64,000 nucleotides of DNA from Cloeon dipterum. Taxonomy: Eukaryota > Arthropoda > Insecta > Ephemeroptera > Baetidae. Under the pieces are notes generated by a model. The model did not search any database. It saw only the letters and a program-made list of their open reading frames with translations, and was not told the origin of the DNA. This document shows, piece by piece, positions 3,101 through 63,673 of this stretch. The stretch covers positions 11,536,545 through 11,600,544 of the forward strand of contig NC_088790.1 of NCBI RefSeq assembly GCF_949628265.1. Reading direction: 5' to 3'. Position 1 is the stretch's first letter; the number at the start of each line of letters is the position of its first letter. Made by a program: the position numbers and the translations under genes.

Positions 3101-5792
3101 GGTATAAATTCTAAAATTATAATAATTTTTTAATAAGAAAACGTGAACTAAAGGTATGCTGATGAAAACGACGAGCTAAACTCTGAAGGGCTGAGCCAAT
3201 TCTTCTACAGAGAACAAAGATGCACAAAACATCCAGACGACTGTCTCGAATTGATAAGGGAGTACGAGCCCTCGGATTTGAAGCACAAAGACGAGCCTAA
3301 AATGTCCGTCATAGGTATGAATCATCCATCCGTCATAATTGAGATTTACGTCAAATCGAATACATAGGTTTTACGAATCTTTTGCTGAGCGAGGAATTCC
3401 AACTTTGCGAATCGAAACATTTGGCCGAGGTTTATCAGGATATGACGCAACCGCTGTCGCATTACTTCATCGCCTCCTCACACAACACGTAAGCCACTGC
3501 AAAAAATTAATTGATGAAGTGATGATAACTAATAGAGAAAACGCGTGAAAAGGTACTTGACGGGAAATCAACTCAGCGGTGAGAGCACAGTGGAGGGCTA
3601 CATTAACGCTTTGACCAAAGGATGTCGTTGTGTCGAACGTAAGTTTTCCTGGTAAAAATTTTATAGCACAGTCAAAAAATTTTTACCAATACAGAAATCA
3701 GCTCCAAATAAAGTATTCTAACTATATAGTAGAACAGAGAGATTGAATAATTGTTCTCAACATTTTTATAATGATTTGCGAAGCTTTGAAAAAATTTCAA
3801 ATAGTTGTCAATTTTTGACGAGGCAAATCTGTCGATCAGTCGCTGTTTTTGCCATTCAGATTTTTGAATCTAGGATTATTTTTAACAGTTGACTGCTGGG
3901 ATGGACCAAAAGGTGAGCCGATGGTGTACCACGGCTTCACCCTGACTACGAAGATCATGTTCCACGACATCCTGACCGACGCGATCCTGCCGTACGCGTT
4001 CAAGGTGTCTGATTATCCGGTGATTCTGTCGCTGGAGGTGCACTGTTCGGCCGAGCAGCAGGCCCGCATGGCCCACCATCTGACCACCATCCTTGGTGAA
4101 CTGCTGTACTTGCAGCCGATCGACGATCTGACGCAGCTTCCCTCACCAGAGCAACTCAAGAGAAAAATAATCATAAAGGCGAAGAAACTAAAGACGCAGC
4201 TGTGTAAGCCGATGAGGATGTCAAAAGCTGAAGACATCAATGACGGGCAGGACGACGAGGAGTCGTCGCAGTCCGAGCCTGATTCCGACAATGAAGCTGA
4301 TGAAGAACCCGTCCAAGCGGACGGAACTGTTTCCTCCACAGTAGTGAAAAAGGTAATTTTATTTTAATAATCGTAATTCAAGCAGTGAAAATTTGACTCT
4401 TCGTCCGCAGCAAGTACCTGTGGAGTGTCATTTGTCGGATTTGGTCAACCTCTGCCAGGCAGTACACTTCCACGGGCTGCGCTATTCAAAAATGCATGGT
4501 AAAAATATGAAAAACGTCAAAGAATTTTTTTTAATGGCAAATAGGGAAATGCTTCCACATGTCTTCCTTCGCGGAGAATAAAGCCAAGAAATTGATCTCA
4601 ACTGACCTGGATGGTTTCATCGACTACAACAGGCGCCAACTTTCAAGAATCTACCCAGGCGGGAAAAGGGCCGATTCGTCCAACTTCAATCCCATCCAAT
4701 TTTGGAATGCAGGCTGCCAAATTGGTATTATTCAATTTCTCCTGTATTTATTTTGCTTCATTTCCCGAATCAGTTGCGTTGAACTACCAAGGGAAGGAGA
4801 GTCCGTGCTTCTACAACGAGGCCAAGTTCAAGACAAACGGCAACTGTGGCTACATCTTGAAGCCGCCATACCTGCGTGATCAGACATCCTATAGTTTGAA
4901 TGACAGGCCAGCGTGGTAAAAAATACTGAGGGGATAAACAAATAAAAATAAACTTTTTAATCTTGAATATATAGGAGCCCAAAAGTGCTCCGTCTACAGC
5001 TAATAAGCGGGCAGCATATTCCGAAGCCAGACAACTCGACTGATGGCGAGATCGTTGACCCGTACATCAAAGTGAAAGTGATCGGAATGGAATGCGACCA
5101 GCGCGAATTCAAAACCAAAGACATTCACGATAACGGTATATATCCCCCGTTTTTTCTCAACTGTAAGATAAAAATGCAAAAGAAATCATAATTTGTAAAG
5201 ATCTTCTCTCACTGTCAAATATTCTTTAACGCCAATTTAAGTAAGTCGATCGAGAAATTAAAAATTATAATTGCATCTAAATGTGGTTATTCTCACTGTA
5301 AGTAAAAAACTCACTAAATTCTTTACATGAAATGACTTTGTCGGGGGGAGGAAATTATTAACAAAGAGAAAAACACACCGTGTTAAAAATTTGCCAGGGC
5401 CAAAATTGACCCAAGCTAGAAATTTTTTAAATGGTTTTAAAAGAAAATGCATATGTTTTAATCCCGAGATTGGAATCTTTAATGACGGCTGATGAATCTT
5501 CCGCAGGACTGAATCCAGTTTGGAACGAAACTTTCGAGTTTCCAGTATTCTACCCAGATCTTGCAATGCTGCATTTGGCTGTGAAAGACAACAGCAACAC
5601 TGGCGTCAACGAGCTCCTCGGCGCCTATGCCGTTCCTTTTACCAGTTTGAGAGAAGGTATTTTTTAAGTTAAAATAAAAAATCCAACTCTATTACCTTAT
5701 ATTTAGGCTATTGCCACTGCCCACTACTGAACGAACAGAGACAACCCCTCTCGCCAGCAACTCTTTTCATGCATATTTCTATTACCGAGTGA
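186..5792 (+). CDS. Phospholipase C delta (phosphoinositide-specific), 15 coding exons, 798 aa
   Basis: Hydrolyses PIP2 to IP3 and diacylglycerol at the inner plasma membrane in a Ca2+-dependent way. Exons: 186-252, 1653-1832, 2354-2618, 2798-2927, 2986-3101, 3154-3314, 3368-3488, 3553-3638, 3889-4352, 4411-4498, 4545-4724, 4774-4915, 4975-5135, 5507-5656, 5707-5792; all join in frame. Order: PH domain (about aa 25-160), EF-hands (first loop [12 protein letters not shown]), X domain ([27 protein letters not shown]), acidic Ser/Glu linker (about aa 495-525), Y domain ([16 protein letters not shown]) and C2 (VDPYIKVKV). Catalytic His/Asn of SSHNT, Glu375, Asp377, His390 and Glu425 are present. 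This order, with no G-protein or SH2 insert, is that of the delta class. Oddity: the residue after Glu425 is Val where the family has Asn. The second EF-hand is degenerate. An AATAAA lies at 6020. Assignment is very secure; the delta subtype number is not. Confidence 0.93.
253..1652 (+). other. First intron of phospholipase C delta, 1.4 kb
   Basis: AT-rich intron with donor GTAAAT after codon 22 and acceptor TTTTTCAG before 1653. I see no gene or repeat in it; short open frames at 1364-1656 have no family resemblance. Confidence 0.8.
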
Positions 5793-6281: not shown

Positions 6282-11495
<5,214 letters not shown>

Positions 11496-15699: not shown

Positions 15700-18625
15700 T
15701 TACTTCTTGGTAGAGTACGAGCCCTTGACTCCGGGTTTTGAGGCACCGTCGTCAGCGGCTACAACCCCCGCCTCCTCCGAGATCTTCGCGGGGTGACGGC
15801 ACCTCCAAATGGTGACCGCCAGGGCCACTAAGGCGAGCACGGCGAGTAACGCCAGAACGGCGAACAGGATGTACATGTAGTTGAAGTTGCGGTTCTTTGG
15901 CTTGTTGCTGGTCACAGATGCCGAGGTGGGGCGCATGCCACTCGCATTGTTCTCGGGGAACTTGGGAACGCGGGTCACTGGCGTGGTTGGTCTCAGGCCG
16001 TTGTCTTCGATGCCTCCTTGGTTGAAGTCGGGGTTGTTGTTGTTGTTGTTGTTGTTGTTGAAGAAGGGAAAATCGGTATTCGGGTTGAAATTGGAGTTCG
16101 GATTTTTAGTGGGGTGGAAATTTGGGTTAGCGTTGCCATTGAAATTTGGATTGTTGTTGAAGTTGGGGTTATTGTTATTGGGGAAGTTGTTATTAGGATT
16201 GAAGTTGGGGTTCGGATTGTTGTGACCATTGAAGTTTGGATTGTTGTTGGAGTTGGGGAATTTGGTATTTGGGTTGAAATTTGGATTGTTGTTGAAGTTG
16301 GGGTTATTGTTATTGTGGAAGTTGTTATTAGGGTTGAAGTTGGAGTTCGGTTTGTTGTTACCATTGAAGTTTGGATTTTTGTTGGAGTTGGGGTTATTGT
16401 TTGGGATGTTAAAGTTTGGATTTTTGTTGCCATTGAAATTCGGATTGTTGAAGTTAGGGTTATTGTTAAAATTTGGGTCGTTATTTTGCCCGTTGTCGAA
16501 AGGATCCAAATTTCCAAATGAGTTCTCCTGATTGACGCCTCCAAATCCACCATTATTTGATTCTGTAAACACATTTCACGTATAATAATAGTTTTAAAAA
16601 CACAGGAAAAGGAATCTTACGGTCTAAAATGCATTCGGGAATGGAGCCGTTTCGCACTCCATTCCGACAAGAGATAGCGTAGGGAGAGCTGGCTTTGTAT
16701 CCCTGCTTGCATCGCACTGTAATCACTCCGTTGTGGTAATTCACTTCCTTATCGTCCCTAACCACTGTTTTCCTTTCAACTGCAAATGTTAAAAACTGTT
16801 AAAATCTACATGGAATGTGAAATTTCACTCAATAAAAAACTTTATAGTATATGTTAATCGATAAAGAAGACCACAAGAAGTGGTGATGAAAAGAAAATTT
16901 AAACTTACCCTTTATTCTATGAAATTATTAAAATTAAAAACATGAAGCTTAAAAATGGACCAAATTGCTCTATACGAAAACTTGGATTAGAATGCTCTGA
17001 CCTGCTAAAATCAATATAATTTTCTGCTTACTTTAGTTACTATTGAAATCATCCAAGCTAAAAAGTATCCGTATTTTTTAATTAGAACCGGCACCGACTC
17101 TCCGCTAGCTGGTTTTCGCACCTTTCCAGCGGTTTTAAGGACAATGTTTCAATCCAAGACCCTGTTGTGGGGAGGCGGAAAAGTGGCTACGATTGGGCCC
17201 ATGCTCCAGCCCCATATTATCCGTTCAGCGGTGTTATTGGGTGAGCTAATAGCCCATTTGAGAAAATTTGAGCAGACACGAACTTAAAAAAATTAAATTA
17301 GGTCTTCATGTGTACCATTGCAGAGGATGCTTTTTCCGCTATCGTCGATGAAGGATGACTGCGTCCACCGGCCGTTGGAGCCGCACTCGATGTCATATTC
17401 TAAGCAGTCGTCGAAACATGAGCACCCCATCTTGATGTCACCGATGGTGCCAACACTGTTGTCCTCGCATTTGAACTGCTTGTTTCCTTGGAGCGGACAT
17501 AGTGCGTCACAGTTGTCTGCAATTTTCAGCAGCGTGTGTTATAAAAATCTGCCTTTTTGGGTGATTTGTGCGTTATTCTCACCGCAAGGGAAGTCGAAGA
17601 TTTCAGGATGAACATACCAAGTTCCCGCGAAACAGATCAGCTTGACGGGCACTTTCTCGCACTTGCTGCACTGACATATGGCCTCATTGCTCGGGAAACT
17701 GGGGCTCTTGAGCGGCTGGCAGTTCTTCAAGTGTCCTGCTCCATTCGAGGGCTGGTTACAATCGATATGGGGCGTTCGGGCTGAAGGTGAAATTTTTTAG
17801 ATAAATTATACACGGCAGAAGATCCTTGCAAGCACAATGTAACACTCCCCAAACCCCTGTGTGTTTTGAAATGGGAAAATTGTCTGAGGCAAAATTTGCC
17901 TGAAAGTTTCTTTTTCACGTGGCAGCAGTTCCAGCTTTACATATGTTCGCCTTGATTTTGGAAGAAGAATTTTTGCTCTTCAAAAAGGCTTCAAATTAAG
18001 GTACAGAATTTTGGGCTTGCGAATTTTTGCCAGTAGGATTTTTGTTACAGGAAGGAAGGAGTTGCTGGATTTTGCAGGATGTTCCTTTTCTTTTTAAATT
18101 TGTTTGCAATCTCTTTGGTTAAAAGTCCACACACAAGTTTATTTACTTAATCTTTTCATAACACATGTTCCTTTTTTATCTGCATAATTAGTTTGAGCTG
18201 CAGTAGAGCGCAATTGAAGTTTGCACTAGTGAACATGAATTTTTGGAGAGGCATTTGGTAGTTTTTCTATGTATCCTTAGGTTATTATTGAGCAAAACCA
18301 GAGAATTCAGGAAAATGCTTCTTGATAATTACTTTTAATATATACGTGTTTGATTTTACCTTGATTTAGCAGTTCCGGGGTAAGTTTCTGCCAAAAAACA
18401 ATAGGGCTGTACCTAGACTGTCCAGCAGGGCCATTTTTCACGTTCTTACTTGCTTCCCATTTTCCTGTTTGATAGTCACCTGGTCGATTTCCGTAAGCTA
18501 AGTACACTTTGATTAGTATCAAATTTCTGCAAACACAAGATTGAACACATACCGAAAACAGAGGGCATTGCCAGGATGGCGATCAACGCTAAGATTTTGA
18601 CGCCCGAGTCGCAAACCTTGAGCAT
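15700..18625 (-). CDS. Unrecognised type I membrane protein with three cysteine-rich modules and an Asn-rich stalk, 543 aa
   Basis: I do not recognise this family. Exons, 5' to 3': 18625-18553, 18497-18360, 17780-17583, 17516-17316, 16779-16621, 16562-15700; every junction is phase 1. Exon 1 is a signal peptide (ILALIAILAMPSVFG). Exons 3, 4 and 5 each encode one cysteine module: CQCSKC...CFAGTWYVHP; CSCFDDCLEYDIECGSNGRW; and a sushi-like VRCKQGYKASS...GSIPEC. Exon 6 holds about 180 aa of Asn/Pro/Phe repeats (NPNFN units), one membrane span (YILFAVLALLAVLALVALAV) and a cytoplasmic tail of about 34 aa ending STKK. Topology is therefore extracellular N-terminus, cytoplasmic C-terminus. It is a tandem paralogue of 19439-20917, with the same exon plan and cysteine spacing. 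AATAAA on the - strand at 15588-15583 would end the transcript. A receptor or adhesion role is only inference. Confidence 0.8.
15960..16560 (-). repeat. Coding minisatellite: NPNFN-type repeats
   Basis: Within the last exon of the 15700-18625 gene, short units such as NPNFN, FNPNN and NFNGN repeat, with a run of nine Asn codons (AAC repeats, seen as GTT repeats on the + strand) near 16033-16060. All reading stays open, so the expansion is maintained in frame. Strand-slippage length variation is likely. Confidence 0.85.
17086..17277 (+). repeat. SINE-like repeat, copy 2 (partial)
   Basis: It lies in an intron of the 15700-18625 gene, antisense to it. It shares CTGGTTTTCGCACCTTTCC, the TATCCGTTCAGCGGTGTTAT block and the tail TAATAGCCCATTTGAG with other copies. 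The 5' head with the box-A-like motif is missing. Confidence 0.55.
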
Positions 18626-19438
18626 TTTGAAAGCTGTCAAAATCCACATCCGTTGTTTTCTGCCGCTCCCAAAATAAGACTGTGGATGACAGACTGCCAC
18701 ACTTTGTTATAATAAGCAAGTGGAAAACCCAACTAACTCGAGCGGATGAATGTCACTGCGGCTTCCTTTCGAGTCACTGCTTTTCTTGGATGATCGTGTG
18801 CTATTTACAGACCACAAAAGGTCGCACTTTGTGGTGAAATAAATTCTGTAATTAACGCAAGAATTGATTTTTAGCATGGGAAGCATCGCAGACATGCGGT
18901 TTGACTGATTAGGACTTACATATTCTCCACGTTAGCGATTTATTTTAAACCTCGCCGCAGTCTACAGCTATAATAAAAAGCCTCAGATTTTTTAAACTAG
19001 ATAATTTGTCTAATTTTAAATTAATACGGTTTGATAGAAAAAGAGTGAACTATACGAAATGAGCAATAATATTCAAACGAAGGGCAAAGTTAAGCAAGCT
19101 TCCAAAAAAACTTAAATTTTAATATTTTCTATAAAATTCACTGAGGATGACCATTTTTTTCAACTCCTCTCGACGATAAAAACTTTATATTCCAAGTAGG
19201 AAGACAGTGTTTGCCCTTAGAAAGGCACAAAAGCTTTGTAACCCAAAATACAGTGGTAAATATTGGCTTTGACTGAATCTTGAAAGACTTATTTATTTTT
19301 AATAGTAACCAGAAATACTTGGACAGGGGGTAAAATAATTAATTTAAATAACAAATCAATGGTCTGCTTTACCAGCGTTTTAGTTTTTATGATCACTTGA
19401 AAAGTACACGTAAGCTAGGTTGATTGATGATCGCGCTA
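18626..19438. other. Spacer between the two cysteine-module genes
   Basis: About 0.8 kb. It should contain the promoter of the 15700-18625 gene and the 3' end of the 19439-20917 gene, for which AATAAA lies on the - strand at 19297-19292. No TATA box is obvious. Confidence 0.5.
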
Positions 19439-20917
19439 TTAAGTGGAACTCTGTGCTTTGCCAGGTGTGGCGTAGATTGGTGATTCGGCTATTTCTGAGC
19501 GCTTAACATTGCGGCACTTGCGCAACAAGGGCACGGAAACTGCAACCACCAGAGCCAAAACCAATGCCAAAGCAACAAATAATATGATGTACAAAGTAGT
19601 GTTGCTCATTTTGTCGGATTCACTGCGTTCTGAAAATTTTTAATGTTTAATTTTAAGTAGCCCGATTGACAAAAATTAAAAATCATTGAAATTCATGAAA
19701 TTTTAAAGTGTGCACTATTTGAACTTAATTGATAGATACCAAGTATGCATTCTGGTATGGTTCCATTTCGATAGCCATTGATGCACGAGAGTTTATTGTG
19801 GTAATCCGTTTTGTAGCCTTTCTCGCAACGGACGGTGATCAAACCCCTGTCGTACTCTATGCTCCTGTATCCCAACCGCATCACCTTCTTTTCAGCTGAA
19901 AAATAAAATAACTATAATTGTTGTCATTTATTTTTTAATTCATGAAATAGTTTGATTTCCAGCCCTCCAACATGTCTCGAAAGACGATTTTAAAAGCAGA
20001 TAACTCCAAATGACCGTGATTTTAAAAATCAGCCGGCAAAAAGCTTTGTTTTTAAAATTACAATTGCAAACGAAGCTGTGTCCATTAGAGTCAATGAATT
20101 TTTTCTGCATCCACTGGCCATTGGCGTCGCACTCAAGGTCATAGTCGAGGCAGTCGTGCATGCAGGTGCAATCGCTCTTGACGCTTTTTGCGGCTCCAAT
20201 TTGCTGAGTCCTGCACTCAAACTGCCTGTTCGGCTGCGTGCACGCTTTATTGTTGCAGTGCTCTGAAATGTGAAAAATTATGTTTTACGTTGCCTATCCT
20301 TTGATCCTGATACCTACTGCAGGGAAGATCGTAGTGGTCTGGGTGCAAATACCATTTGCCGGCGCTACAGAATAATTTGAACGACTTCTCTGCGCACTGG
20401 GCGCAAAAGCACTCAGCCGATCTTGCGGGAAAAGCGCCTCGATCTCTGGCCCCGCAGTCTCTGAAAAGGCCGTGCTCGGTCCGGGGAGGGTTGCATTCTT
20501 CATATCCGGCTGGATTAATTTGAATAATTAGAGCATAATTTGGAATGAAATATCGTGTGGCAAATACCTCTGTTTAACAAATCCCTGGTGCCCACTCCAG
20601 ATAAGTCCACAGCAGTGAACGTGCTTCGTTTTTCAATCCTTGTTTCGACTGTAGCAGCTAATAATATGCAAGTTAAATCGCGTTGGAAGAAAATGTGGTC
20701 CACAATGATATTTAGGAAGTTTTTTAAAAGATTAATTTAAATTATGAATATCAGGAATATTAAATGAGTTAAAAGCCTCGTCATGAATAAATTGGAAATA
20801 ATTTTGTGCCTAATTTTTTATATGACTATTGTTAAAACTGTGGCGCACATGATTTAAAATAAAAACTCTACCAAAAATAGAAGGAAGGAAGACCAACGCA
20901 GCAAGTGAGAGCAACAT
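19439..20917 (-). CDS. Unrecognised type I membrane protein with three cysteine-rich modules, 291 aa (paralogue)
   Basis: Exons, 5' to 3': 20917-20872, 20657-20568, 20509-20318, 20262-20062, 19895-19740, 19629-19439; all junctions phase 1, as in the neighbour at 15700-18625. Exon 1 is a short signal peptide (MLLSLAALVFLPSIFG). Exon 3 encodes CFCAQC...CSAGKWYLHP, exon 4 CTCMHDCLDYDLECDANGQW, exon 5 a sushi-like ITVRCEKGYKT...GTIPECIL. Exon 6 has a membrane span (YIILFVALALVLALVVAV) directly after the third module, then a basic RKCRNVKR stop-transfer and a tail of about 28 aa. It lacks the Asn-rich stalk of its paralogue, so the two differ mainly in how far the modules stand from the membrane. 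Function unknown; the family may be restricted to one lineage. Confidence 0.8.
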
Positions 20918-22264: not shown

Positions 22265-25200
22265 TTATTGCATGTCTGGTTCGCGATACGCGAGCTCTAT
22301 AGAAGTGGAAAAGTCTTCAAAGAAGTGCTTCAGGAATTCAAACGTCGGCCTTCTTTCAGGATTGCCGTCCCAGCAGATGAGCATCGTTTCGTAGACCTGA
22401 TCAGGCATAGGCACATTATGCGGCTTCGGCATGCGGTAGTCCCTTTCCAGGGCTTCCATCACGTCCTTGGTGGTCATGCCAGGGTAGGGCACCTGGCCGT
22501 ACGTGAAGATCTCCATCAGTAAGATGCCGTACGACCACACGTCCGACTTGATCGTGAAGCGGTTGTACAGGATCGCCTCTGGCGCTGTCCATTTAATTGG
22601 GAACCTTCCACCTAAAGGTATAATGGGATAAGGGTTCATTTTGTTTATTTGCAAACACGGCACATTTATTAATTGAAAAGTCAAAATAGGACAGAAACAC
22701 TTATCATTCAAACTGAGAATTGTTTGCAAAATTCTTAAATTTTAAATATGCAAAAATATCATATCCATTGAGGTAATTTGCAACCTGTTATTTTTTAAGG
22801 CAAGGTAAGAAAATAAATATTTTACAGACTAATTTTTTACTTTGTAACTAAGCACTATATATATGCAAATTAAATAACTTGAAAAAGAAGTCTCAAGGCT
22901 TGTGTAAACGTAAGTTAAATTTAGATTGGTGTTTACTTCCATTTTTGAGAAATCCAATTAAGGAACTAAGAAAAACATGATTTTTTCACCGCCAAAGCTT
23001 CTCAGAAATGCAAAAAACTACACACAGTTCAACTCGTCCTAACCTCCTCTGGGGAACCAAACAGGTATTATGGTGCTTATCACACCACCCCTTTCATCCC
23101 CCTGCTAAAATTGGCATTGGAAAAATACTTTTATCACCCTTGCCTTGCGCTAAATTTATTATGTATATCTAATTGAATTCAAGGTCTCAGCCAGCCGCGC
23201 TGCGCCGCTGGCTAATTCTAGTTCTTGTGGTCAGCCGCCGACAACCACTAATATTAGTCTCTGGTGGCCAAAACTTTTAAAATTAAACTGTCACCAGGTT
23301 AAAATTCGGCTTCAGCCGTCAGCCAGCCTCCGCGCCTCAAAATCACGCGGCTGAGACCTCGTTATTTTATCACTAATTTAAATCCAGCCTAATACTTATC
23401 AGTTGGGGAATTGAAACGGTCTATTTTATTTAAATACTCATTTCCTGACCTGCTTTTGCACAGTATTCATCATCCTCGATCAACCTGGCGAGGCCGAAGT
23501 CGCAGATCTTAACCAAATTATTGTCCGTGACCAAAATGTTCCTGGCCGCAATGTCGCGATGGATGAGGTTCAAGTTCTCCAGATAGTGCATTCCGCTTGC
23601 AATCTGAAAACAGAAATGGTCACAACTCACACAATTTTTTTTCGATTTTTGGCAGACCTGAGCGGATATGTAGATGAGGTCGTTGGTCAATAGGCAGCGG
23701 CCGTCGCCATGCCGGAGGTAGTCGAGCAGCGAGCCCTTCTTCATGAACTCCTGAATGATGTACATAGGTTCGTCCTTGGAGCACACGGCAAACAACGCTA
23801 CCAGGTTCTTGTGGCGGAATTTCTTCATGATGGCCGCCTCCTCCAAAAAGGCACTTGCGGACATCGACCCTGGCTTCAGGGTTTTCACAGCCACAGATTC
23901 GTCCTTCCATTTACCTTTATTGAGTTTCAAAATTTGATATCAGCTACAAGTTCAGTGAGTTTAAATTATTTGTTAAGGGAGAGTTTAAAAAACCAAAGTG
24001 AATAGAAGATTTTTGCAGTTTTTAATGGTTTTTGAAGGTCATTATTTAAAGTTATGTAAAATGGAAAATATCAATTTGATTAATAAGTCTAAAAAATAGC
24101 ATCAAACCTTTAATATCTAATATTTACAAAGTAACGAATTTTCTACGTAAAAGATATACAGCAAAATTTTAAACATTTTAAATAGATATATTCGTCTCTG
24201 TTTTATGACAGTTATTTTTTCTTCCTTTGTTGAAAAATATCTGAAGAAAATCTTAGAGCTGGAGGAAACGATGAAAATATGGCAATGATTTTTCAATTTA
24301 CCTAGCCAAACTTCGCCAAAGTTGCCTGAGCCGAGTTTCTTTGTGAGCACCAACTCGTTTCTGTCAATCTCCCACCTGTCTACGTGAGCCGGCGAGAGGT
24401 CCCACCTCTCTGGTCTAGGCTTTGGACACGGCTGGGTCAGCATGCAACAAAGCCCGTGAGAGTTTTCTGCAAATAGAATTTAAGCGTTTGATCAAAATCA
24501 GATTAAAGTGGCAGATTTTTAGCTTAAGATACTTGTTTTGGGTTTTTTTATATTTTAGAAAATATATTATTTTCGCAGCATTTTCAAATCACCGGAAACC
24601 AACTTGTGGCCAATGCTTGATAATTAGAGACCCAATGGAGGGGACGGATATTTTTGCCACAATTGTTTTATTCTTTAACAAAAACTAGACGTACGAACCT
24701 AATTTTAGGCACTGAAAATAACATTCTCTGCAGCATTGAAATTTTTGACTACATATAGTTATTAAAAAGTCATCTTGAAATTTAAACAGAATTGAGAACA
24801 TTAATTGAATTTTCAGTGATTATGTTTAGATGTTGCGAATGGAAATGGCGACTGGGAAGATCATTTGCCATTCAATTTCAACGTAAAAAAATACGCTGCT
24901 CTTTTTGGAAACACGGAAACTGCTAATTATTATTAGTGGTTTTTAGTCAACTCTTCTAGCTACATAAAACGGTGTGGTTCTTGGGTAGCAGCCGGAGCGT
25001 CCGGCGGCCGCGCGCCACGCCTTAGGTCTGCAGGCGCATTTTGGGGCAAATCAGGCCGAGTCATGTCACGACATTAGACTACTGTGAGACTGATGCAGTA
25101 AAATCGTTTTTGATCTAATAACAATTCATTACCTCTCTTTTTTTGTAAAAAAATACCCAGTAGAAAAACTATTTCGACACTAATTGAAAAATGCATCGTT

Positions 25201-26498
25201 ATTTTTTTCCAAAACAATCTTAGAATTACTTTTTGGGCTACTAGCTATATTTATTGAATCATATAAATATGTAGATTTATATTCAATAAATATTCACTGT
25301 CAGTAAAATTGTGCAGTTTCGTCACTGCTCTATTAGGAGCAAAAATTCAGCTTATAGAAGGGGTGTACCAAATAACTCATTTTGTGTACAAGCTTTCTCT
25401 TGAGAAAATTTGAAAATATATAACAGTTGAATTGTGAATTATAAGTTTAACGTTAGATTTGTGATCCCATAAGTATGTTTTGAACTATTAACTATTCGAT
25501 TTTATTGGTTTCAAGGCACCACCCTTTTGTGATTCGCTACGAATAGAAATAATCTGCTTAAAATGTATATCATTTGGTTGCTAAAAATATTAAAAAATCC
25601 GCGCTCGTTTGGGACCAAATAAATCGACAGCACTCACTGCTGTAGGCTTGTACGAACGCTTGCAAGTTTGGGAAGTGGTGGTTGACGGAGACAAAGTAGC
25701 GAGTCTTGTCTTCTGACGTCCTAATTTTGTAGTGCTTGACGTGGTCGCCTTTGCCCTCCTCGAAGTCGCGCACGCTGAGACTGAAGCCGTCCGGGTTGTG
25801 CTCCGAGTTGCGGATGAGGAAGGTGCCTCGCGGCGTTTGCGTGGACATCAAGTACTTTTCCGCCTCCCTGCGCGTTGTCTTCGCGAAGAACCAACTGCGG
25901 ACACGAAAGGTCCAATTAGATTAAAAACAAAGTTTGATCGCGACCAGGCTCGTACTCTTCACTCTCAATAGACCTCTCCTCGGCGACGTAGTTGGACGGA
26001 ATGAGGCCCTCCTTTTTGGTGGCCAGGTGACGCACTTTCCACCAGTCCTGGCTGTGGACACAGTTATTCTCAGACCTGTCGGCGGCAAATTGGAGAATTC
26101 TGCTTACTTGGTGTCGTTCAGGATCACCATCTTGTCTCCCTTCTTAAAGGTGAGGTCACCGTCCTCCCTGGCCTTGTAGTCGAAAACGCCGACCACCACT
26201 TTCTTGCCCTCCAACGACTCCTCGACGACCGGAGCAGGTGGAGCCGCTATGGAAGGAAAATAATACTCTGGAGTATTAACAAATTTTGGTGTAAACTTAC
26301 GGAATTGAGGAGGCCCTGGGAGCATTGGACCTCGCAAGTAATCATTGCCGGAACTTCCTTGTTGCACCGCCTCAGAATCTGCATGAGAATTATCTTCTTG
26401 TGAGTTTGGAATTTCCTCGTGGCCTTGGAAGGATTGATACCTCGTTTGGTGAAAGTTACATCCGGCTCAGCAGCATCCCTGCTTTGGCAGCACCCCAT
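22265..26498 (-). CDS. Src-family tyrosine kinase, Src64B-like, downstream tandem copy, 516 aa
   Basis: Non-receptor tyrosine kinase at the inner plasma membrane. Exons, 5' to 3': 26498-26441, 26378-26301, 26246-26108, 26051-25956, 25894-25638, 24466-24302, 23914-23658, 23603-23450, 22611-22265. It starts MGCCQSRD, giving an N-myristoylation Gly2 and palmitoylation cysteines. Then a unique region, SH3 ([24 protein letters not shown]), SH2 ([31 protein letters not shown]) and kinase: [11 protein letters not shown] loop, Lys275 in [13 protein letters not shown] with Asp367, DFG at 385, activation-loop Tyr397, APE. The C-terminal tail YREPDMQ supplies the inhibitory Tyr510. The hinge QEF gives a Gln gatekeeper. 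Motifs fit Src64B better than Src42A. A further intron (24301-23915) interrupts the kinase domain where the neighbouring copy has none. All catalytic residues are intact. Confidence 0.92.
23182..23359. mobile_element. Foldback/MITE-like element with 11-bp terminal inverted repeats
   Basis: It lies in an intron of the 22265-26498 Src gene. Perfect termini AGGTCTCAGCC (23182-23192) and GGCTGAGACCT (23349-23359), with nested inverted pairs GCTGGCT/AGCCAGC and GTGGT/ACCAC. Much richer in GC than the flanking intron. No target-site duplication is obvious and there is no coding capacity. Confidence 0.5.
24467..25637 (-). other. Src-like gene intron between SH2 and kinase exons
   Basis: 1.17-kb AT-rich intron with donor A|GTGAGT and acceptor TTTGCAG. 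A short GC-rich patch is near 24990-25050. No gene seen. Confidence 0.7.
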
Positions 26499-30756: not shown

Positions 30757-33700
30757 TCAGATCTCGCGGTACGGAATCTCCGAGGTGACGTTGAAGTCCT
30801 CGAAGAAGTGCTGCAGGAACTCGAACGTGGGTCTCTTCTCGGGCGTGTTGTCCCAGCACATGAGCATGACGTTGTAGATCTCGTCCGGCAGGGGCACCGA
30901 CGTCGGCTTTGGCATGCGGTAGCCCCTCTCCAGGGCCTCGATCACGTCCCTCGTGTTCATGCCAGGGTAGGGCACCTGGCCGTACGTGAAGATCTCCATC
31001 AGCAGGATGCCGTACGACCAGACGTCAGACTTGATTGTGAAGCGGTTGTAGATGATCGCTTCCGGTGCTGTCCATTTCACAGGGAACCGAGCACCTGTGG
31101 ATATTTTATAAGTTTATTTAACAAAGCAGCTAATTTAACAGGTTGAATTATTTTGTCTAGATTAAAAGGGGTGATTTTTATTGGTTCGCACTAATAATCC
31201 CAAATTTCAGAAGGCTAGAAGTGTGATTTTGTACAAGACGTACAAGTTTAGTTTTATTTGTACATCAATCTTTCACAAAGTCGTTTTTTCTCTAGCTAAC
31301 AGGTTTAAAAATGTAATGCCTGAAGAAGCAAATTTTAATTTACATAAAAAGTTAACTAAACCAACGGTCATTATGGGCGTAGAAGTACTTGGATGGCTTC
31401 ACACAATGATTTAGGCGCATTACAGCGCAGTTTAAGAATTTTAAAATTGCAAAATTCGTCCTGAAGATAGCAAAATAATTTATTGGAAACACAAAAAGAG
31501 GATTTTTAATATCAAACACAATAAATATTTTTATAAAAAACAAAATTTTGCAAGTTATCTTGGATTTTTTGTTTGCAAAGACAAATTAATAGCATGCAAA
31601 ACTTTCAAACTTTGGAGCAATATTGCAAAGAAACCATGTCAAGTAACGCAACAATAATTAGTAAAGTCCATTTAGACAAAAGCTGTACCTTGTCTTGGGC
31701 AATATTCGTCATCCTCGATTAGTTTCGCAAGACCAAAGTCACAAATTTTGGCCACGTTGTTATCTCCTAGTAGAATATTTCTTGCAGCTATGTCTCTATG
31801 AATGAGGTTCAATTTCTCCAAATACTGCATTCCACTTGCAACCTGCGAACAAAGAAATAACAGTTAAAAATAATTTCTGCAACGCTAATCATCCAACAGT
31901 TACTTCTACATTAAATTTGTTCTCTATACCAAACTAAAAATTAAGCCAGAAAGAGCGCATTAGAACAAGCTGCATAAAATCATTTTATTAAAAGTAGATT
32001 TGATGTTAAAACTGACCTGAGCAGCAATGTATATCAGATCTCCAAGCGAGAGATTCTCCTTGCCCTCGTGTCTCAGATAATCGAGCAGAGATCCTTTGTT
32101 CATGAACTCTTGAATGATCAGAATGGGCTCCTCCCTGGAGCACACGGCGTATAAAGCGACCAGTCTGTTGTGGCGGAACTTCTTCATGATGGCAGCCTCC
32201 TCCAAGAAGGCCTGTGGAGACATGGAGCCCGGCTTGAGGGTCTTCACGGCCACCGGCAGGTCTCTCCAGTTTCCAAGCCACACTTCGCCAAAGTTGCCCT
32301 GGCCTAGCTTTCGCACAAGCGTGATTTCATTGCGGTCAATTTCCCACTGGTCCCGCAGCATTGGCGACAAGTCCCACATTTCCGGTCTCGGCTTCGGACA
32401 TGGCCTCGATAGCACATGGCACAGCCCCAAAGCATTTTCTGCGGATGACAAATATATAATTTAAAACGCATAAATAAAATTGCAAGTCAATTCAAAATAA
32501 AGTATAATTAAAAAATGCTTGTGAGAAAAATTTAGCTACATAATATACAAAAATTTAAAACAAATATCTCTTTCAAAATTTAGGGGGTTTCCCAAGTCAT
32601 TCTTCTTGTCCCTCTCGTCAAATAGTTTGTCTGGTAAATATTATTATAGTTGATCAAAAACTTACTAAAAATTAGTTTATAAACGATCCCCATTGAAATA
32701 AATAAGTTCTGAGCTCCAGAGTTTGCTACAACTTTAATTTTACATAGATAATTTGATCTCTGTTTGCTTCATGAAAAAGGTAACGATTTTAATGAGTCAA
32801 AACATTCTTTTCAGTTGGAAAAAAACTTGTACCAATTAAATAAATGATATTCATGACTTAATAGCTGCACAAAATAATTATCAAAGATTCTCCACTTGTA
32901 AAGACTTTCAACTTACTGCTATAAGCTTGGACGAGACTTTGGAGGCTAGGAAAGACGTGGTTGGTGGCAATGTAGAATCCATTGCCGTTGTCCAGCGACT
33001 TGATTTTGTAGTGTTTGACGTGGTGTGCGCGCAGCTCCTCCCAGTCCTTGACGCTGAGGCTGAACCCACTAGGGTTGTGCTCAGAGTTGCGGATTAGGAA
33101 CGTACCTCGAGGATTCTCTGGCGCCAGCAGCAGCTTTTCCGCTTCTTTACGCACGATTTTGCCAAAGAACCAGCTGCGGATCAAGCAATGTTAGAGATTT
33201 CGTCAGGCGAGTTGACGTCAAATACTCACTCTTCACTCTCGATGGAACGCTCGTCGGCGACGAAGTTCCAAGGGACCAAGCCCTCCTTGTTGGTCTTCAG
33301 ATGCCGAACTCGCCACCAGTCAGACTCCCTGAGAAAATGTCAACAATTATGAACTAAAGTGCTAATTTCATTTATAAGTTTTATGGATAAACTATTTTTG
33401 TGCTCATGTGGGTTTTGATCGCATATTTTTCACAAAGCTAGGCTCGACAGGATTGACTGATTAATTGCTAATAGTGATATATGGTCCAAGGGCTTTTATA
33501 TCTTAATATTTTACGCCAGATAGACCATAGATTATTTTTAGGGGCTCTATAAACTTAAAAAATTTAATTTAATAATTATTTTAGAAATAGCAAATCTTTG
33601 TTTCTAGTACATATTTTTTTCAATATTAAACTAAATAAATCCTTTTGATCAGAGTAAAGGAAATAAGAGAAATTATTTATTACGAGTCGTCAATGACAAG

Positions 33701-39660: not shown

Positions 39661-42617
39661 ATGTCTTCGGCAGCCATGCAACCGCACAGCCGGAAGAAAG
39701 TTTGCTACTATTACGACAGTGAGTACGGGTCTGAGATTTTTAAAATTTTGGGATTAGACCGGTAAAAAATGCAAAATCTAAGCGAGTATGTATACATACA
39801 TACCTAACAGTCGATCGCGGTAGAAGGTGGACTTGTACAATATTTTGGTTGAAATTAGGTCTTTTATGTAAAAATTTTACCTCCAAATTACTGATTATAC
39901 TTTGACTTTGAAAATTGCAAAACAATATTTCGAATTTCTTGAACCGAAGTGTCGGAAATGCGAAAATTTCATCAATTCGGCCATTAAATTCTCAAGTGGA
40001 TAAAAGTTGGTACTTTGCGTGATCACTCATGTTCAACGCCACCGGTTCAGCTTACTTACTTTGCCGTGCTTCGGCCGCGGAACTACTATTTCTACCTAAT
40101 TTCAAACATTTAATATCTCTTAAATGTTTATGTTTCTATAGAAATAAATTTCTTGTATTTAAACTTAGGAACGCAAAAAATATTCATGGTCACCCTCAAT
40201 CCTTATCCACGTGTGAACCTAAAGAACATGGCGGATACAAACTGAATTTATCGAAGATGATGAACTCGGTCTTCTTCTCACAATCAATATGATTCACTGG
40301 ATAAACTATTCCATTGCAGGTGACATCGGAAATTACTACTATGGGCAAGGCCACCCCATGAAGCCGCACCGCATACGCATGACGCACAACCTTCTCTTGA
40401 ACTACGGCCTCTACCGCAAGATGGAAATTTACGTAGGTTTTCTAAAAGACTGCTTTTGCGAAGGCCAAGTTTAAAAAATGAAATTTTAGCGTCCTCACAA
40501 AGCAACTGCCGACGAGATGACCAAGTTCCACAGCGATGACTACATCCGGTTCCTCAGGAGTATCCGCCCTGATAATATGGCAGAATACAACAAGCAGATG
40601 CAGAGATGTAAGTTCAGTTATCTTCTTTGTTCTGTAATAAAAACCTTGAAAGATTGTTTTGTCGCGGTTTAATAATGTTACACAATAAAAGACACAACCT
40701 TTTAACAATTAAATTATATATTTTAATCTGATTTCAGTCAACGTTGGAGAAGATTGCCCTGTGTTTGACGGTCTGTACGAGTTCTGCCAGCTGTCCGCAG
40801 GCGGCTCTGTGGCTGCTGCTGTCAAGCTGAACAAGCAGTCGTCCGACATCTGCATCAACTGGGGTGGTGGACTTCATCACGCAAAGAAGTCTGAGGCCTC
40901 CGGTTTCTGCTATGTCAACGACATCGTGCTCGGCATCCTTGAACTGCTCAAGTATCATCAGAGGGTCTTGTACATTGACATCGACGTCCACCACGGTGAT
41001 GGCGTTGAAGAGGCGTTTTACACTACTGACCGGGTGATGACCGTGTCGTTCCACAAGTACGGAGAGTACTTCCCTGGAACTGGAGATCTCAGGGTGAGAA
41101 CCTGTACCGTTTTCAAGGGAAAAATTTTCTTCGATATTGCAATCGTTTGGAAGGGGTCGGCAGAAGTGTTCGGCGCAAAAACCACGTTAAACTTAAACAG
41201 TGCTTGCTTGTGGTTTAGAGGAAACAGAGAAAATAAAGTGCTAATTCATACATAACACGGTGGTTGGTTACTGGTCGGCCTGGGCGCCTGGTCATGGCGC
41301 CTCTAGGTCAATAGCACGCCAGAGTTTAAAACACTTATACCACATCTTACGACTCATAATCTACAAATTTTTTAAACTTAAAGTTCATCTGTGGAAATTA
41401 TTTAAACGTGTCGTGTGATTGCGTGTTATGAATTGACTACCTTTTGATTTGCCTGCATTTCAGTAACTTATTAATCCCTTGTACATTTTACCATTTTTCA
41501 CTTTTCTTGATTAATACTTAATATAAAATTTTATTTAGTGTTAAATAAAATTTATTTGTCATTTCAGGATATTGGTGCTGGCAAAGGCAAGTACTATGCT
41601 GTGAACATTCCCCTGCGCGACGGCATTGACGACGCGAGCTACGAGAGCATTTTCGTGCCAATCATGTCCAAGGTGATGGAGACCTTCCAGCCTGGAGCAA
41701 TCGTGCTACAATGCGGCGCCGACTCACTCACAGGAGACAGACTCGGCTGTTTCAATCTGACCGTGCGAGGTTTGTAGCCTAACTCATCGCAAGACGCAGC
41801 CATTCTCAATTTTAAAATCTCGCTAGGCCACGGAAAGTGCGTGGAGTTCATGAAAAAGTACAACCTGCCGCTGCTGATCGTGGGTGGCGGTGGCTACACC
41901 ATTAGGAACGTTTCCCGTTGCTGGACCTATGAGACTTCGGTTGCATTGGGCGTGGAAATCGCCAACGAGCTGCCGTACAACGACTATTTTGAATATTTTG
42001 GACCAGACTTTAAACTTCATATCAGCCCATCAAACATGGCCAACCAAAACACAACTGAATACCTGGAAAAGATCAAGTGAGTTGCATTTTCTTCACTTGA
42101 GAAAGGAACTATATTGACTTATGTGTACGTTCTAATTTCAGAACTCGCCTATTTGAGAATCTCAGAATGCTTCCTCATGCTCCTGGCGTTCAAATGCAAG
42201 GTAAAGAGTAATTCAATAGAAACATTTAAACTTTGTACTCAAATTTGTGTTATTTAACAGCCATTCCAGAAGATGCGCTGAAAGTAGATTCTGGGGAAGA
42301 TGATGACAAAGCCAATCCAGATGAACGTCTCCCTCAGAGCATTACTGATAAGAGAATCAATCCAGACAATGAATTTTCTGACAGTGACGACGAAGCTGAT
42401 CGTAAGGACCAAAAAGCATCATACAAGGGACGCAAACGACCGCGTTTGGACAAGTCGCACAAACATGATAACGACGAGAAAAAAGATGAAGATGATAAAA
42501 AGACGAGTAAGTGACAAAATTTGATATATGTCTCAAAACATTAATGAATCGATTGGATCTGCAGAAAATGATGAGAAAGAATCGAAGAAAGATGGTGAGA
42601 AAACCAGCGCAGCTTAA
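39661..42617 (+). CDS. HDAC1: Class I histone deacetylase HDAC1/Rpd3, 9 coding exons, 484 aa
   Basis: Zinc-dependent lysine deacetylase, the catalytic subunit of Sin3, NuRD and CoREST corepressor complexes in the nucleus. Exons: 39661-39718, 40320-40432, 40490-40607, 40738-41093, 41568-41769, 41827-42076, 42142-42200, 42261-42506, 42565-42617. The catalytic domain is nearly identical to the family: [32 protein letters not shown] (His143/His144), DIDVHHGDG (zinc ligands Asp179 and His181), [13 protein letters not shown] (Asp267), [10 protein letters not shown] (Tyr306). The acidic/basic tail keeps the EFSDSDDE casein-kinase-2 type site and a KGRKRPR nuclear-signal-like stretch. Length matches vertebrate HDAC1 (482) and is shorter than fly Rpd3. 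No TATA box was seen; a CpG-rich stretch before the ATG fits a housekeeping promoter. Poly(A) signals AATAAA occur at 42964 and 43153. Confidence 0.97.
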
Positions 42618-58637: not shown

Positions 58638-61600
58638 ATGAGCAAGTACAAGTCACCTGGTACCCTGCAAAATGCCTGCATCAGCTTCATCTGCGAAAAC
58701 CTGGAAGAATTGTGTTATCTAGTCCCGCCAGCCTCGGAGTCGTGCGAAAACTCCACTCACCATGGTAACTTGGTTATTTTTCCCTTTCCTCCTGCCAAAA
58801 TAGTGGCATAATTTATTTACCTGGAAATTCGTGATTAAAATTTAAATCAATAAATGTATTAATAAGAAGCATCTTAGAAGAGCGAAATAGACGCTGAAAA
58901 ATGACTGGAATTTCAATTTTCCCAAGTACTTTTTCTGTTAAACTTAGCCCAATAGTAATTATTAAAGCATGCAAAATAGTATTTTTAGGAAACCCAGAAA
59001 AAATATTGTGGCTGTTGCATTTAATATAATTCATTATTAATTAGCACTGTAACTTAGTAAAGTGGCTCCAAAGTATGTGTTTGTTTTAAGTGGCTCCAAA
59101 GTTTGTGTGCTTTTTAATTGGCTTCCTCTCTTTCTTTTTTCGTTCCCCCGTCTAAAGGCCTTCACTGCGATTATATCTCTTCAAGAGTCAACAAAATCTG
59201 CCATGAAAAAATGGTCCAGTGCGACTAATTCCGAGAAATAGCCGAAATCTTTGTTTTTCGTTGTTGCTCTGGGTCTATTTAATTTTGTTGATATTGAACT
59301 AAAACTATATAGTTACTAACTGCATCTGATGATAATGATCATTATCGATTGTTGTCGTGCTCAAATCCACTTCAAATTTATACCAGGACGATTTTATCTG
59401 CAGCTGATTGTGAGATAAAATTTATTTTCATATCATGTCGTCATTAATTGCAAACAGCTGATTTCATAGCCTGGCTTCGTGCAGTACAATGAATCTATAA
59501 AATAAAATTAGGATTAAAGCATTCCAACAAGTTTTTTTTTCAAAACAGGCTTATTCATAATATTTTTTCAGTTTGAATTTCACTTTAAAAAAAGAAGCAT
59601 ACTATTAGTTCGCAATAGTTTTGTTATAAAAAAATGTTATTGCTGCCTTTTTCATCTAATTATTTACTGCTATTGCTTACTGTGTCTTATGTTTTTCTTT
59701 CAAAAAAGATTTTTTAGTAATTAAGTTATGAAGTTACAAATTATGCCTTACTATTTTCCCTCCAGCTGAAGTCAACGTTGCTAATAATCAATAAATATAT
59801 CCCAAGTGTTTTGTGCATTTAGAAAAATATTTAGAAACCTTTCCTTGCTGGAATAGTAGGAAAACAATTATTGATAATTTATATCTGACAATTTCTTAAA
59901 TCTCATCATATTCATCTTCATAATGTGACTTGGCAGGTGCATCTCCGTATCCAGGACCGAGCAAGTGCTGCGGTTGCTCGAAAGAGTCGACCCACCGGCT
60001 TCGGTTCCGGTCAGGACTCCGGCTGCACTCGGACCTGGCCTCGAGGCTCCTGTTTGAGCTGTGCGAAAGCAGAAAGCTGTGCGACACCGCCCTCACGCTG
60101 TTTGACACCAACGTGACCCTGCTTAAGAAGATCCAGCTGAGAAACATCAAAAACACCTACGTCACAGCCAAGGGGCTTCGAATGCTCAAGAGCCACAAGG
60201 TTAGTTCATATTTTTTGCATTAATTAATTAATATATATATTATTTAAACAATTACAAAGTGTTTAATTAAGGAGTTTAATTTTATTTTTACTAGTATTTA
60301 ATTTGATTTTTTTTTCTGTAATCAAGATTTACCTTATAACCCTTATTTGCGATATTATTCACAGCTGACTGATCTGGAAATAACTGGCTTGACTCAAGCA
60401 ACGGTGAACGATCTGCTGGGCTGCGTCGGCGAGTGGACGCTGCAGAATTTACGTAGCCTCAACGTCAGCAGGGGCACGTTCCTCGACCACTCCAAGTTCT
60501 GTGTGGTCGTGTCTCTGTCCAAGCTGAAGGGGCTGCGCTCGCTTGATGTGTCGTACACAGAGTTCAACAAACATGGCCTTGAAGTTGTCACCAATGACCT
60601 TCCAAACCTTGAGTCCCTCGACATTTCGGCCACCAGGGTTGATGACATCACGCCACTTAAGAGGTAAACTAAATTCTGTCGGATCTGCTTGAAAATTTTT
60701 AGTTTTAAAATGGTTTGTAGTACCCATGTAATTAAATTAGTAGACTGTAAAAACCAGCTATAATAATTAAAGCATTCTTAAGAATGTAAAGATTGGGAGA
60801 TATTTGAACTTTTCAAAGAGCTAATACAGATATGGAAAACGGTGGTTAATTGATCTATTCGAAATGCTTAAATAGCTCAACAAGCTGGGAGGCGCACCGA
60901 CGCCAACCCGCCACTTGCTGGTTTTTTGCAATTTTTGAGCGGATTAAGAGAGTTTAGAGACAAACCAATGCAATCAACAAAAGCTCTTGGTGAAAAGATG
61001 GCCACATTGGGCCCAAGCTCCTCTGCGGCCACTTGGGCCCCATTCTATCTGCTTGGGAGTGTTATTGGGACCCGTTGATCTCTTAGCCCATGGCATATAT
61101 GCTAAGCAGAGGTTATAACAACAAATTAAAAAAATGACGTAGCTAGGAGTTGTAATTTAATATTCTTGATTCACATTACAGATTAAAAGATCGCCTGCGG
61201 TCGCTGTCCATGTACAATCTCCGAATTTCAAGCTGTGAAAACACAGTGGCCGTGCTTCTTGAGCTGAACAAGCTGTACAAACTGGACATTTCCGATGAAA
61301 AAGACAACCACCCCTTTGAAATGTTTTCTCCGACCAAAATTAACGTAAAAGATAATAAAATGCAGTCATACAAATTTATGCTTATGTCCTCTGCTCTTAG
61401 GCTACAGATTTGCTGAAGCACGCTCCAGGAATTTGGCCAGATATGGTGTATCTGGACGTTTCGGGCAAGGACGACATCAATCATGATGACCTACTCAACT
61501 TCGTCCTGATGCACCCTAAAATCCAATTTCTCGGTCTGCTGAGAACTGGAGCCTGTTACTCTGAAATTTTCCTGGACAGTAGGTCTGCGCATTATCGTCC

Positions 61601-63673
61601 AGACATGATTGTCACAGGAACCGCGGATGTCAGGCAGATTTTAGAAGCTCTAAATCGGTACCACTGAAGTCTACCACGTCAATCAAAATGTTCATGATCA
61701 TAATTTTTCTGCAGCTATGCGTATCGTCCAGCTTTTGTGCAAAAGTGCCTGTACAAGCTGTTCCGGATAACCACTAATAGCAAGGATCCCCAGATCGAAT
61801 TTCTTAAGGTGGTGCTTTTCTTTATTTAATGTCCATCTATCAATAATTTGAATAAATTTCTCTTAGGTCGTGCTGCGAGCCATGAAAACGCACGGTGATC
61901 AATTCGGGGTGCAAATGGCGTCGACTGCCTGCTTGTACAACCTGACCAAGGGGGAAATAGCCAAAGAGATACACCCCCAGCTGCTGGAAGTTGTAGTCAA
62001 CCAGACTCTCGGTGCCATGGAAACATTCCCCAATCACTATCAGGTGTTAAATTATAACATTTTTTTTCTTCATTTTTCATTTGGGTACTTTAACTGTTCC
62101 CTCCTTATTTGTCTGCTTCAATTAGGTTGTCAATCAAATTTTTGACAATATTAATCACTCAAAATCGGGAGAACCTCCAAGCCATTTTACCCACCTGGAT
62201 ATAATATGTTTCTTTCTTGACATTTTTGCAGTTGCAAAAGAATACTCTGTTGACATTATGCAGCGACCGAATCCTGCAAGATGTGAAGTTCGATAAGTTC
62301 CGGTGCGCCCGCCTGGTGATGGAGTGTCTCTGTGCTTTTGACGACGCCTCAATGAACAGAATGAGCGTCGCCATTTGCTCCATCCTTGGTATGCATTCCT
62401 TATTTACTCCATCTATCTATCAATTTAATCTTGGGGTCTGTTCAGCTGCCAAAATTTCCACCAATGAAACTTCTGAGCTTGGCTCCAAACCGGCTTTCAT
62501 GAAGAAACTGCTAAGCCTGGTGCGCTCCAAGGTGGAGACCAAGCAGGTCGACATCACCATGAAGTTTACCCTGAGTGCCCTGTGGAATTTGACAGGTGCT
62601 AATTATTACACTTTGAAAGGGATTTTTTTCTTAAAGCGAGTAAATTCTGCAGATGAATCTCCAAAGACTTGTGATGTTTTTTTGAAAGAAGGGGGCCTTA
62701 ACTTGTTCCTCGAGGTCCTCAGCATCTTCAGAGGAGAGAGTGCTGTCGAGACTAAGGTGCTCGGACTGATAAACAATATTGCGGAAGTGCCGACTCTCAG
62801 GAGAATGCTTATGGTCGACGTTTTCCTCATTCATCTCAGGTATACCACCACGATTCTGATTTCCAGGAAAAGGGAAAGCTAATAAATTATTGATTGAAGC
62901 TTGAACAATACATCTATTCAACAATCCAAACCGGTTTTCATTAAAATATTTTATATATAGATGTTTATTCTCACTTAAATACAAATATACAAATACATCA
63001 ATACGACAAGTCAGAAGTAGAAAAAATGAAGTGAGAAAGGGCACCATTCCTGGCAAACAACTTGATAAAACCTTGCTCCTAGGAGCAAAGTCGGAATGGG
63101 CATAATTGTGGCATAATTTTTTATCAATTCATTAATTTTCCTCGTTAGTTTTTTCGCAAAGATTTGCCAATTGAAGCTTCTTCAAATTGACACACAAAAT
63201 ATATAAACAAATGACAGTTTTGAGTATCAAAATTTTTCAAACATCCGTGCATATTTCATCATTATTCAATCGAAATAAATAAAAACTCTTGATTTCATAT
63301 TTTAATATTCAAATATCAATTTCAGGGAACTTTTGCACTCGGAACATTTGGATGTAAGCTACTTCGCAGCTGGCATCGTAGCTCACCTAGCGAGCGATGG
63401 TGCTGAAACGTGGAGTGTACCTAACATCAGCAGGAACGACATGTTGGAGGAGCTGGTGAGACTCTTCGATTTCTCGCTTTGCTTGGCACCAAAATCTGAC
63501 GAAATCTGACTTTACTCTCCAGGGCAGCGTTGTCCTCAAGTGGGAGACTCCAGAGGGCGAAATGGTTGCCTACCGCTCCTTCCAGCCTTTCTTCTCACTG
63601 CTCAAGAGTGACACACCGTTTCAGGTGCAACTCTGGGCAGTTTGGGCCATTCAGCATGTTTGCACCAAAAATG
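58638..63673 (+). CDS. ZYG11B: ZYG11B-like CUL2 ubiquitin ligase substrate receptor (3' end outside window)
   Basis: Substrate receptor of a cullin-2/elongin ligase; the human family recognises N-terminal glycine degrons. Twelve exons seen: 58638-58764, 59937-60199, 60365-60663, 61182-61344, 61401-61657, 61715-61808, 61867-62043, 62232-62388, 62446-62595, 62653-62839, 63326-63455, 63523-63673, giving about 718 aa; donor ATG|GTGAGT at 63673 shows that more follows beyond 64000. Near the N-terminus TLQNACISFI fits the elongin BC-box. Leucine-rich repeats follow (LRSLNVSRG, LRSLDVSY, LESLDISATRVDDI, LYKLDISDEK, MVYLDVSG), then armadillo-type repeats (LQKNTLLTLCSDRILQDV, FTLSALWNLTDESP, VLGLINNIAEV, VSYFAAGIVAHLAS, MVAYRSFQPFFSLL, VQLWAVWAIQHVC). 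These are much closer to ZYG11B than to ZER1. A SINE copy sits in intron 3. Confidence 0.92.
58765..59936 (+). other. First intron of the ZYG11B-like gene, 1.17 kb
   Basis: AT-rich, with donor ATG|GTAACT and acceptor CTTGGCAG. A 16-bp perfect palindrome GATAATGATCATTATC is at 59331-59346. No other feature. Confidence 0.7.
60859..61114 (+). repeat. SINE-like repeat, copy 5 (near full length, 256 bp)
   Basis: In intron 3 of the ZYG11B-like gene, same strand. It has the head TCGAAATGCTTAAATAGCTCAACAAGCTGG, the middle AAAAGATGGCCACATTGGGCCC, GTGTTATTGGGACCCGTTGA and the 3' end TAGCCCATGGCATAT...AAGCAGAGGTT. It joins the parts found separately in the other four copies. Confidence 0.65.
63037..63101 (+). 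repeat. Dyad (stem-loop) element, copy 2
   Basis: In intron 10 of the ZYG11B-like gene. Outer arms CATTCC / GGAATG and an inner palindrome TTGCTCCTAGGAGCAA. It aligns without gaps to 51241-51306. Confidence 0.55.

Follow-up and report, generated by a model that had tools for sequence, protein, structure and literature searches.

Two adjacent genes with a shared six-exon plan

The window analysed here is a stretch of 64,000 nt of the Cloeon dipterum genome (positions 11,536,545-11,600,544 of contig C5, NC_088790.1; the assembly comprises 190 Mb in ten contigs). Its minus strand carries two adjacent genes, A and B, predicted to encode modular cysteine-rich proteins. Gene A (20917-19439) would specify 288 aa and gene B (18649-15700) 551 aa; each has six exons and an open spliced frame, and all ten introns are GT-AG and interrupt the frame in phase 1. 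The ATG of gene A at 20917 and the stop of gene B at 15700 are the exact ends of the feature marked in a first-pass annotation of this DNA, which had described two adjacent minus-strand genes of six exons with all junctions in phase 1. That description is borne out, as is its assignment of the signal peptide to exon 1, one cysteine module to each of exons 3-5, and the membrane span and tail to exon 6, with which hydropathy and cysteine counts agree.

The exons of gene A lie at 20917-20872 (signal peptide, with a hydrophobic N-terminus), 20648-20568, 20509-20318 (module 1, 7 Cys), 20262-20062 (module 2, 8 Cys), 19895-19740 (module 3, a sushi domain without its first Cys, 3 Cys) and 19629-19439 (membrane span and a tail of ~27 aa by eye). 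Those of gene B follow the same order: 18649-18553 (signal peptide by hydropathy), 18497-18360, 17780-17583 (module 1, 7 Cys), 17516-17316 (module 2, 8 Cys), 16779-16621 (module 3, likewise without the first sushi Cys, 3 Cys) and 16562-15700, which encodes an Asn-rich stretch, the membrane span and a tail of ~34 aa, again counted by eye. The Kyte-Doolittle peaks of the two spans are 3.28 (A) and 3.24 (B), and by hydropathy both products have the signal peptide and single C-terminal span of type I membrane proteins.

A and B look like separate transcription units, since a TATAAA lies at 20982 upstream of gene A and poly(A)-type signals lie beyond the stops of both genes (ATTAAA at 19303 and AATAAA at 19297 for A, AATAAA at 15588 for B); 789 bp separate the stop of A from the ATG of B. 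The two proteins are 37% identical from module 1 to the tail, most of the B stalk excluded, and 42% identical over the module codons. Cysteine is present in both proteins at 17 of the 19 Cys-containing columns of the module alignment, and agreement between aligned module codons is highest at position 2 (0.66), then position 1 (0.55), then position 3 (0.44), as expected for constrained coding sequence. The pattern CxC ... C..xW ... C, which was devised after inspecting these modules, occurs at four places in the window, namely the module 1 and module 2 exons of A and B, and in none of 20 versions of the window shuffled in two-base blocks. As far as can be judged from sequence, A and B are real genes, their splicing being read from splice sites, open frames and agreement between paralogs.

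The last exon of gene B differs in encoding, ahead of the membrane span, 224 residues rich in Asn (95 Asn, 33 Pro and 25 Phe). Nested tandem repeats of 135 bp and 45 bp at 16139-16429 encode this Asn-Pro-Phe-rich segment, which reads as a stalk grown by tandem repeat expansion. These repeats may vary in length between individuals.

Two further paralogs on the same contig

Searches of the genome with the A and B proteins uncovered a third gene, C, at C5:17.278 Mb, ~5.7 Mb from A and B (E 4.6e-5 with the B query, 0.05 with the A query). It encodes 225 residues on the same exon plan, with a hydrophobic start (hydropathy peak 1.62), a linker exon, modules 1-3 and four phase 1 introns. Only three residues (T, R, H) stand between the last Cys of module 3 and the stop, leaving no membrane span; because the protein ends right after module 3, its product looks secreted.

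Gene D, at C5:32.609 Mb and ~21 Mb from A and B, is the less secure member: the C query finds it at E 0.09 and its second module at E 7.5, and the reciprocal search with D retrieves C at E 0.0165. Its 151 residues comprise two modules of 7 Cys each, with two phase 1 introns and no membrane span. The start resembles a signal peptide by eye and falls below the hydropathy threshold that we used; the product is apparently secreted. We infer that D belongs to the family from these weak E-values together with exon phase, module order and cysteine pattern. Because the pattern CxC ... C..xW ... C was written after the modules had been seen, its matches in genes C and D add no independent support. Across the four genes all 16 introns (16/16) are in phase 1, so that the modules are bounded as class 1-1 modules are, the last module of C and of D having an intron on one side only. 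Member pairs among A-D are too diverged for the ratio of nonsynonymous to synonymous substitutions (dN/dS).

These paralogs support the first-pass view of a paralogous, modular type I family built from class 1-1 exons. Its description as a tandem family of membrane proteins holds for the A/B pair and has to be widened to include two apparently secreted relatives elsewhere on C5, at distances of ~5.7 and 21 Mb. All four members lie on C5, which makes up ~17.5% of the assembly. Protein searches of this genome with A, B, C, D and blended module queries yielded no convincing fifth member; the blended queries returned the four loci and one chance-level place containing a stop (E 6.99). No relatives were found in viral contigs with the B ectodomain as query or in prokaryote contigs with that of A, and a search of literature titles turned up none that we recognised as this family, which is not proof of its being unpublished.

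A dispersed repeat flanks gene D on both sides as a pair of inverted copies (about C5:32,608,275-32,610,191), whose arms, L027:3776-4165 and 5277-5692, are 81-93% complementary. A 331-bp piece of this repeat has at least 41 matches of at least 300 bases, its own place included and with 40 of 1,006 candidates scored, and 19 of the 41 matches listed fall at 29.4-32.6 Mb of C5. It looks like an element of the miniature inverted-repeat transposable element (MITE) type.

Module 3 as a degenerate sushi domain

Against sushi exons of the same genome, the module 3 profile gave an hhalign probability of 95.9 and a score of 39.6, whereas 100 Cys-preserving column shuffles reached at most 18.1 (0/100 at 39.6). 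Of the 51 sushi exons identified in the genome, 20 made up the comparison set; the 51 matches, at E 0.01 or better, are a lower bound, and sushi genes as such are therefore ordinary here. In Pfam, module 3 of gene B scored 19.5 bits with Sushi, just below the cut-off of 20.7, and neither whole A nor whole C gave a Sushi match. Among PDB sequences the module 3 profile found complement receptor 2 at 6.6e-12, a value summed over many repeats whose best single-repeat independent E-value is 2, and OPG190 at 5.2e-5, with an independent E-value of 0.0094 for its single stretch.

The alignment with the sushi/CCP (SCR) profile PF00084 covers the second part of the profile up to its last Cys (C2, GY, C3, P.C4), and module 3 shares with that family its class 1-1 exon and an extracellular setting. 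The canonical domain has four Cys, paired C1-C3 and C2-C4, and a Trp between C3 and C4, whereas all three copies of module 3 have three Cys and carry R (A), R (B) and L (C) in place of the Trp. Judged by these comparisons, module 3 is a degenerate relative within the sushi/CCP superfamily, and a non-canonical one because C1 is missing from all three copies. This supports the earlier suggestion of a sushi-like module without some consensus residues, the absent ones being the first Cys and the Trp. It also makes the statement that the proteins could not be placed too strong as it stood, since module 3 has a superfamily and modules 1 and 2, which match no Pfam family, lean the same way short of significance.

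Modules 1 and 2: a non-significant lean toward sushi/CCP

Neither module 1 nor module 2 comes near the cut-off of any Pfam family, and the B copies of both, scanned alone, likewise remain unmatched; NCBIfam gave no match for the A and C ectodomains, and single-sequence searches of the PDB with the A and B ectodomains returned nothing at E up to 10. Both modules differ from sushi domains in carrying three or four extra Cys. Compared as profiles with the sushi set, module 1 has an hhalign probability of 37.9 over 16 columns (score 21.4, against a maximum of 13.8 in 100 Cys-preserving shuffles) and module 2 one of 10.2 over 13 columns (score 17.2, against 15.1), the similarity being confined to the C..GxW end. 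The two modules align with each other at a probability of 12.5, with a score that 2 of 100 column shuffles also reach, so that module duplication, as proposed in the first-pass annotation, is only suggestive where module 2 as a copy of module 1 is concerned.

A shallow AlphaFold model of B module 1 (m61e67be1bf5c) is all-beta with four strands (predicted local distance difference test (pLDDT) score 77.5, predicted template modelling (pTM) score 0.62). Factor H chains (CCP) occupy the top two rows of its Foldseek listing, without significance; in the VIA listing, complement proteins (factor H, C1r, MASP-1 and MASP-2) take seven of the first ten rows, and three factor H rows align nearly end to end. 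Neither Foldseek nor VIA gave a significant fold match for this model. Taken together, profile and model lean toward sushi/CCP for modules 1 and 2 without reaching significance. Three PDB matches of the module 2 profile (two WhiB, one SPAG16) look like chance. VWC, SVWC, pacifastin and peritrophin domains were set aside on their spacing, as their Cys patterns differ; the tests covering them were the Pfam scans.

A candidate family of sushi-derived recognition proteins

The DNA itself documents the gene structures, the paralogy of A, B and C, the sushi origin of module 3 and a predicted membrane span in A and B that C and D lack. From these we think it fairly probable that A-D are sushi-derived recognition proteins forming a small family of arthropod type, with ectodomains of class 1-1 exons and with membrane-bound and soluble forms. 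Module 1 would be a sushi-like unit with extra cysteines (7 Cys), module 2 a second such unit (8 Cys, 7 in D), and module 3 of A-C a degenerate sushi in which the first Cys and the Trp are lost (3 Cys). Pfam scans found no catalytic domain; this, the short tails (~27 and ~34 residues) and the extracellular class 1-1 modules argue for a binding protein, whose modules would act non-enzymatically at the cell surface by engaging a protein or a glycan. In gene B the Asn-rich stalk would keep the modules at a distance from the membrane. A receptor/decoy or receptor/ligand arrangement is plausible because A and B appear membrane-bound and C and D soluble, and in the same system the soluble products may play the part of partner, competitor or ligand.

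Cysteine counts bear on how the modules might be held together. A, B and C have 7+8+3 Cys and D has 7+7, and in all four genes the ectodomain total is even despite the odd modules 1 and 3; in D, without module 3, the second module has the odd count instead. Even totals with odd modules suggest a disulfide between modules, the simplest inference from the counts: the odd Cys of module 1 would bond with the Cys that lacks a partner in module 3 or, in the case of D, with the odd one of the second module, locking the modules into one rigid unit. Dimerisation would fit the counts too. A bolder version, which we regard as doubtful, holds that CxCxx(x)C ... C..GxW ... C with 7 or 8 Cys is a new arthropod module type, derived from a sushi ancestor through Cys gain, that works only in a disulfide-locked trio with a sushi devoid of its own first Cys, and comes in matched membrane and soluble receptor/decoy versions.

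Known systems offer partial parallels. According to passages of PMC8001218, class 1-1 modules, mainly beta, are the material of animal extracellular proteins, and passages of PMC9083331 deal with invertebrate sushi proteins by which receptors are clustered at synapses. Among the latter, Hig, Hasp and LEV-9 resemble the present proteins as invertebrate extracellular sushi-bearing proteins, a functional analogy only; they have 5 to 17 CCP modules plus Ig or WAP domains, whereas the present proteins have three modules or fewer, of which two are unrecognised. A further parallel is offered by complement regulators of the CD55 and CD46 type. They combine few CCPs with a membrane anchor, and the likeness extends to a low-complexity stalk (gene B); the difference is that modules 1 and 2 have no sequence match.

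Three other explanations have to be weighed. Modules 1 and 2 could be a separate cysteine-rich domain type, not derived from sushi, that was exon-shuffled onto the one sushi, module 3. Their surplus of Cys, the lack of a Pfam match for the B modules alone, the low hhalign probabilities to sushi and the lack of a significant fold match all fit this proposal; both modules nevertheless outscore all 100 Cys-preserving shuffles against sushi, and factor H heads the Foldseek rows. We regard it as a tenable if rather unlikely alternative. Kinship with the hormone-receptor ectodomain of class B G protein-coupled receptors (GPCRs), the proteins then being peptide-binding decoys or co-receptors, is suggested by the module 1 profile: each of its nine PDB matches at E up to 10 is a CGRP receptor chain or a fusion that includes this receptor, over C..DGxWxxHP. 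A passage of PMC2656815 also describes the CRF2(b) receptor N-domain as a sushi fold. However, the shared stretch (C..DGxW/F.xHP) is 16 residues long with a best E of 0.081, and in place of seven helices A and B have one membrane span and C and D none. Such receptors are absent from the 50 rows each of Foldseek and VIA, which does not exclude the kinship. We consider this origin very improbable. Equally remote is the prospect that the gene models are wrong and join exons of other transcripts or relics: gene B does have a large low-complexity exon and the models derive from sequence, but the exon plan recurs in paralog C 5.7 Mb away, the frames run open from ATG to stop, the introns are all GT-AG and conservation by codon position is coding-like.

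If the module type turns out to be real and restricted, sushi-derived recognition proteins of this kind would illustrate the rebuilding of a common shuffled domain: through Cys loss in one copy and an odd Cys in its neighbour, the modules would give up their autonomy and form a fixed multi-module unit. With paralogs that are membrane-bound and others apparently secreted, one small family would also make a clean set for receptor/decoy testing. Should relatives prove common in insects, this would merely be an unannotated sushi-like family overlooked by domain libraries.

Neighbouring genes

Ten of the 27 listed open reading frames of the window were scanned with Pfam. Upstream of gene A, on the minus strand, 22268-26466 and 31963-32460 hold two sets of tyrosine kinase exons with an SH3 exon, which on inspection look like two Src-type kinase genes in tandem. 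Gene A, a neighbour of these exons, has a tail that contains YATP, an SH2-type motif; this is given no weight because the motif is absent from B. On the minus strand, 6285-9630 contains exons for a biopterin-dependent aromatic amino acid hydroxylase and for an ACT domain, the latter matching the tyrosine hydroxylase ACT model below its cut-off. Ordinary neighbours on the plus strand are a PI-PLC X domain exon (3819-4364), a histone deacetylase exon (40713-41252) and zer-1-like exons (60302-62879).
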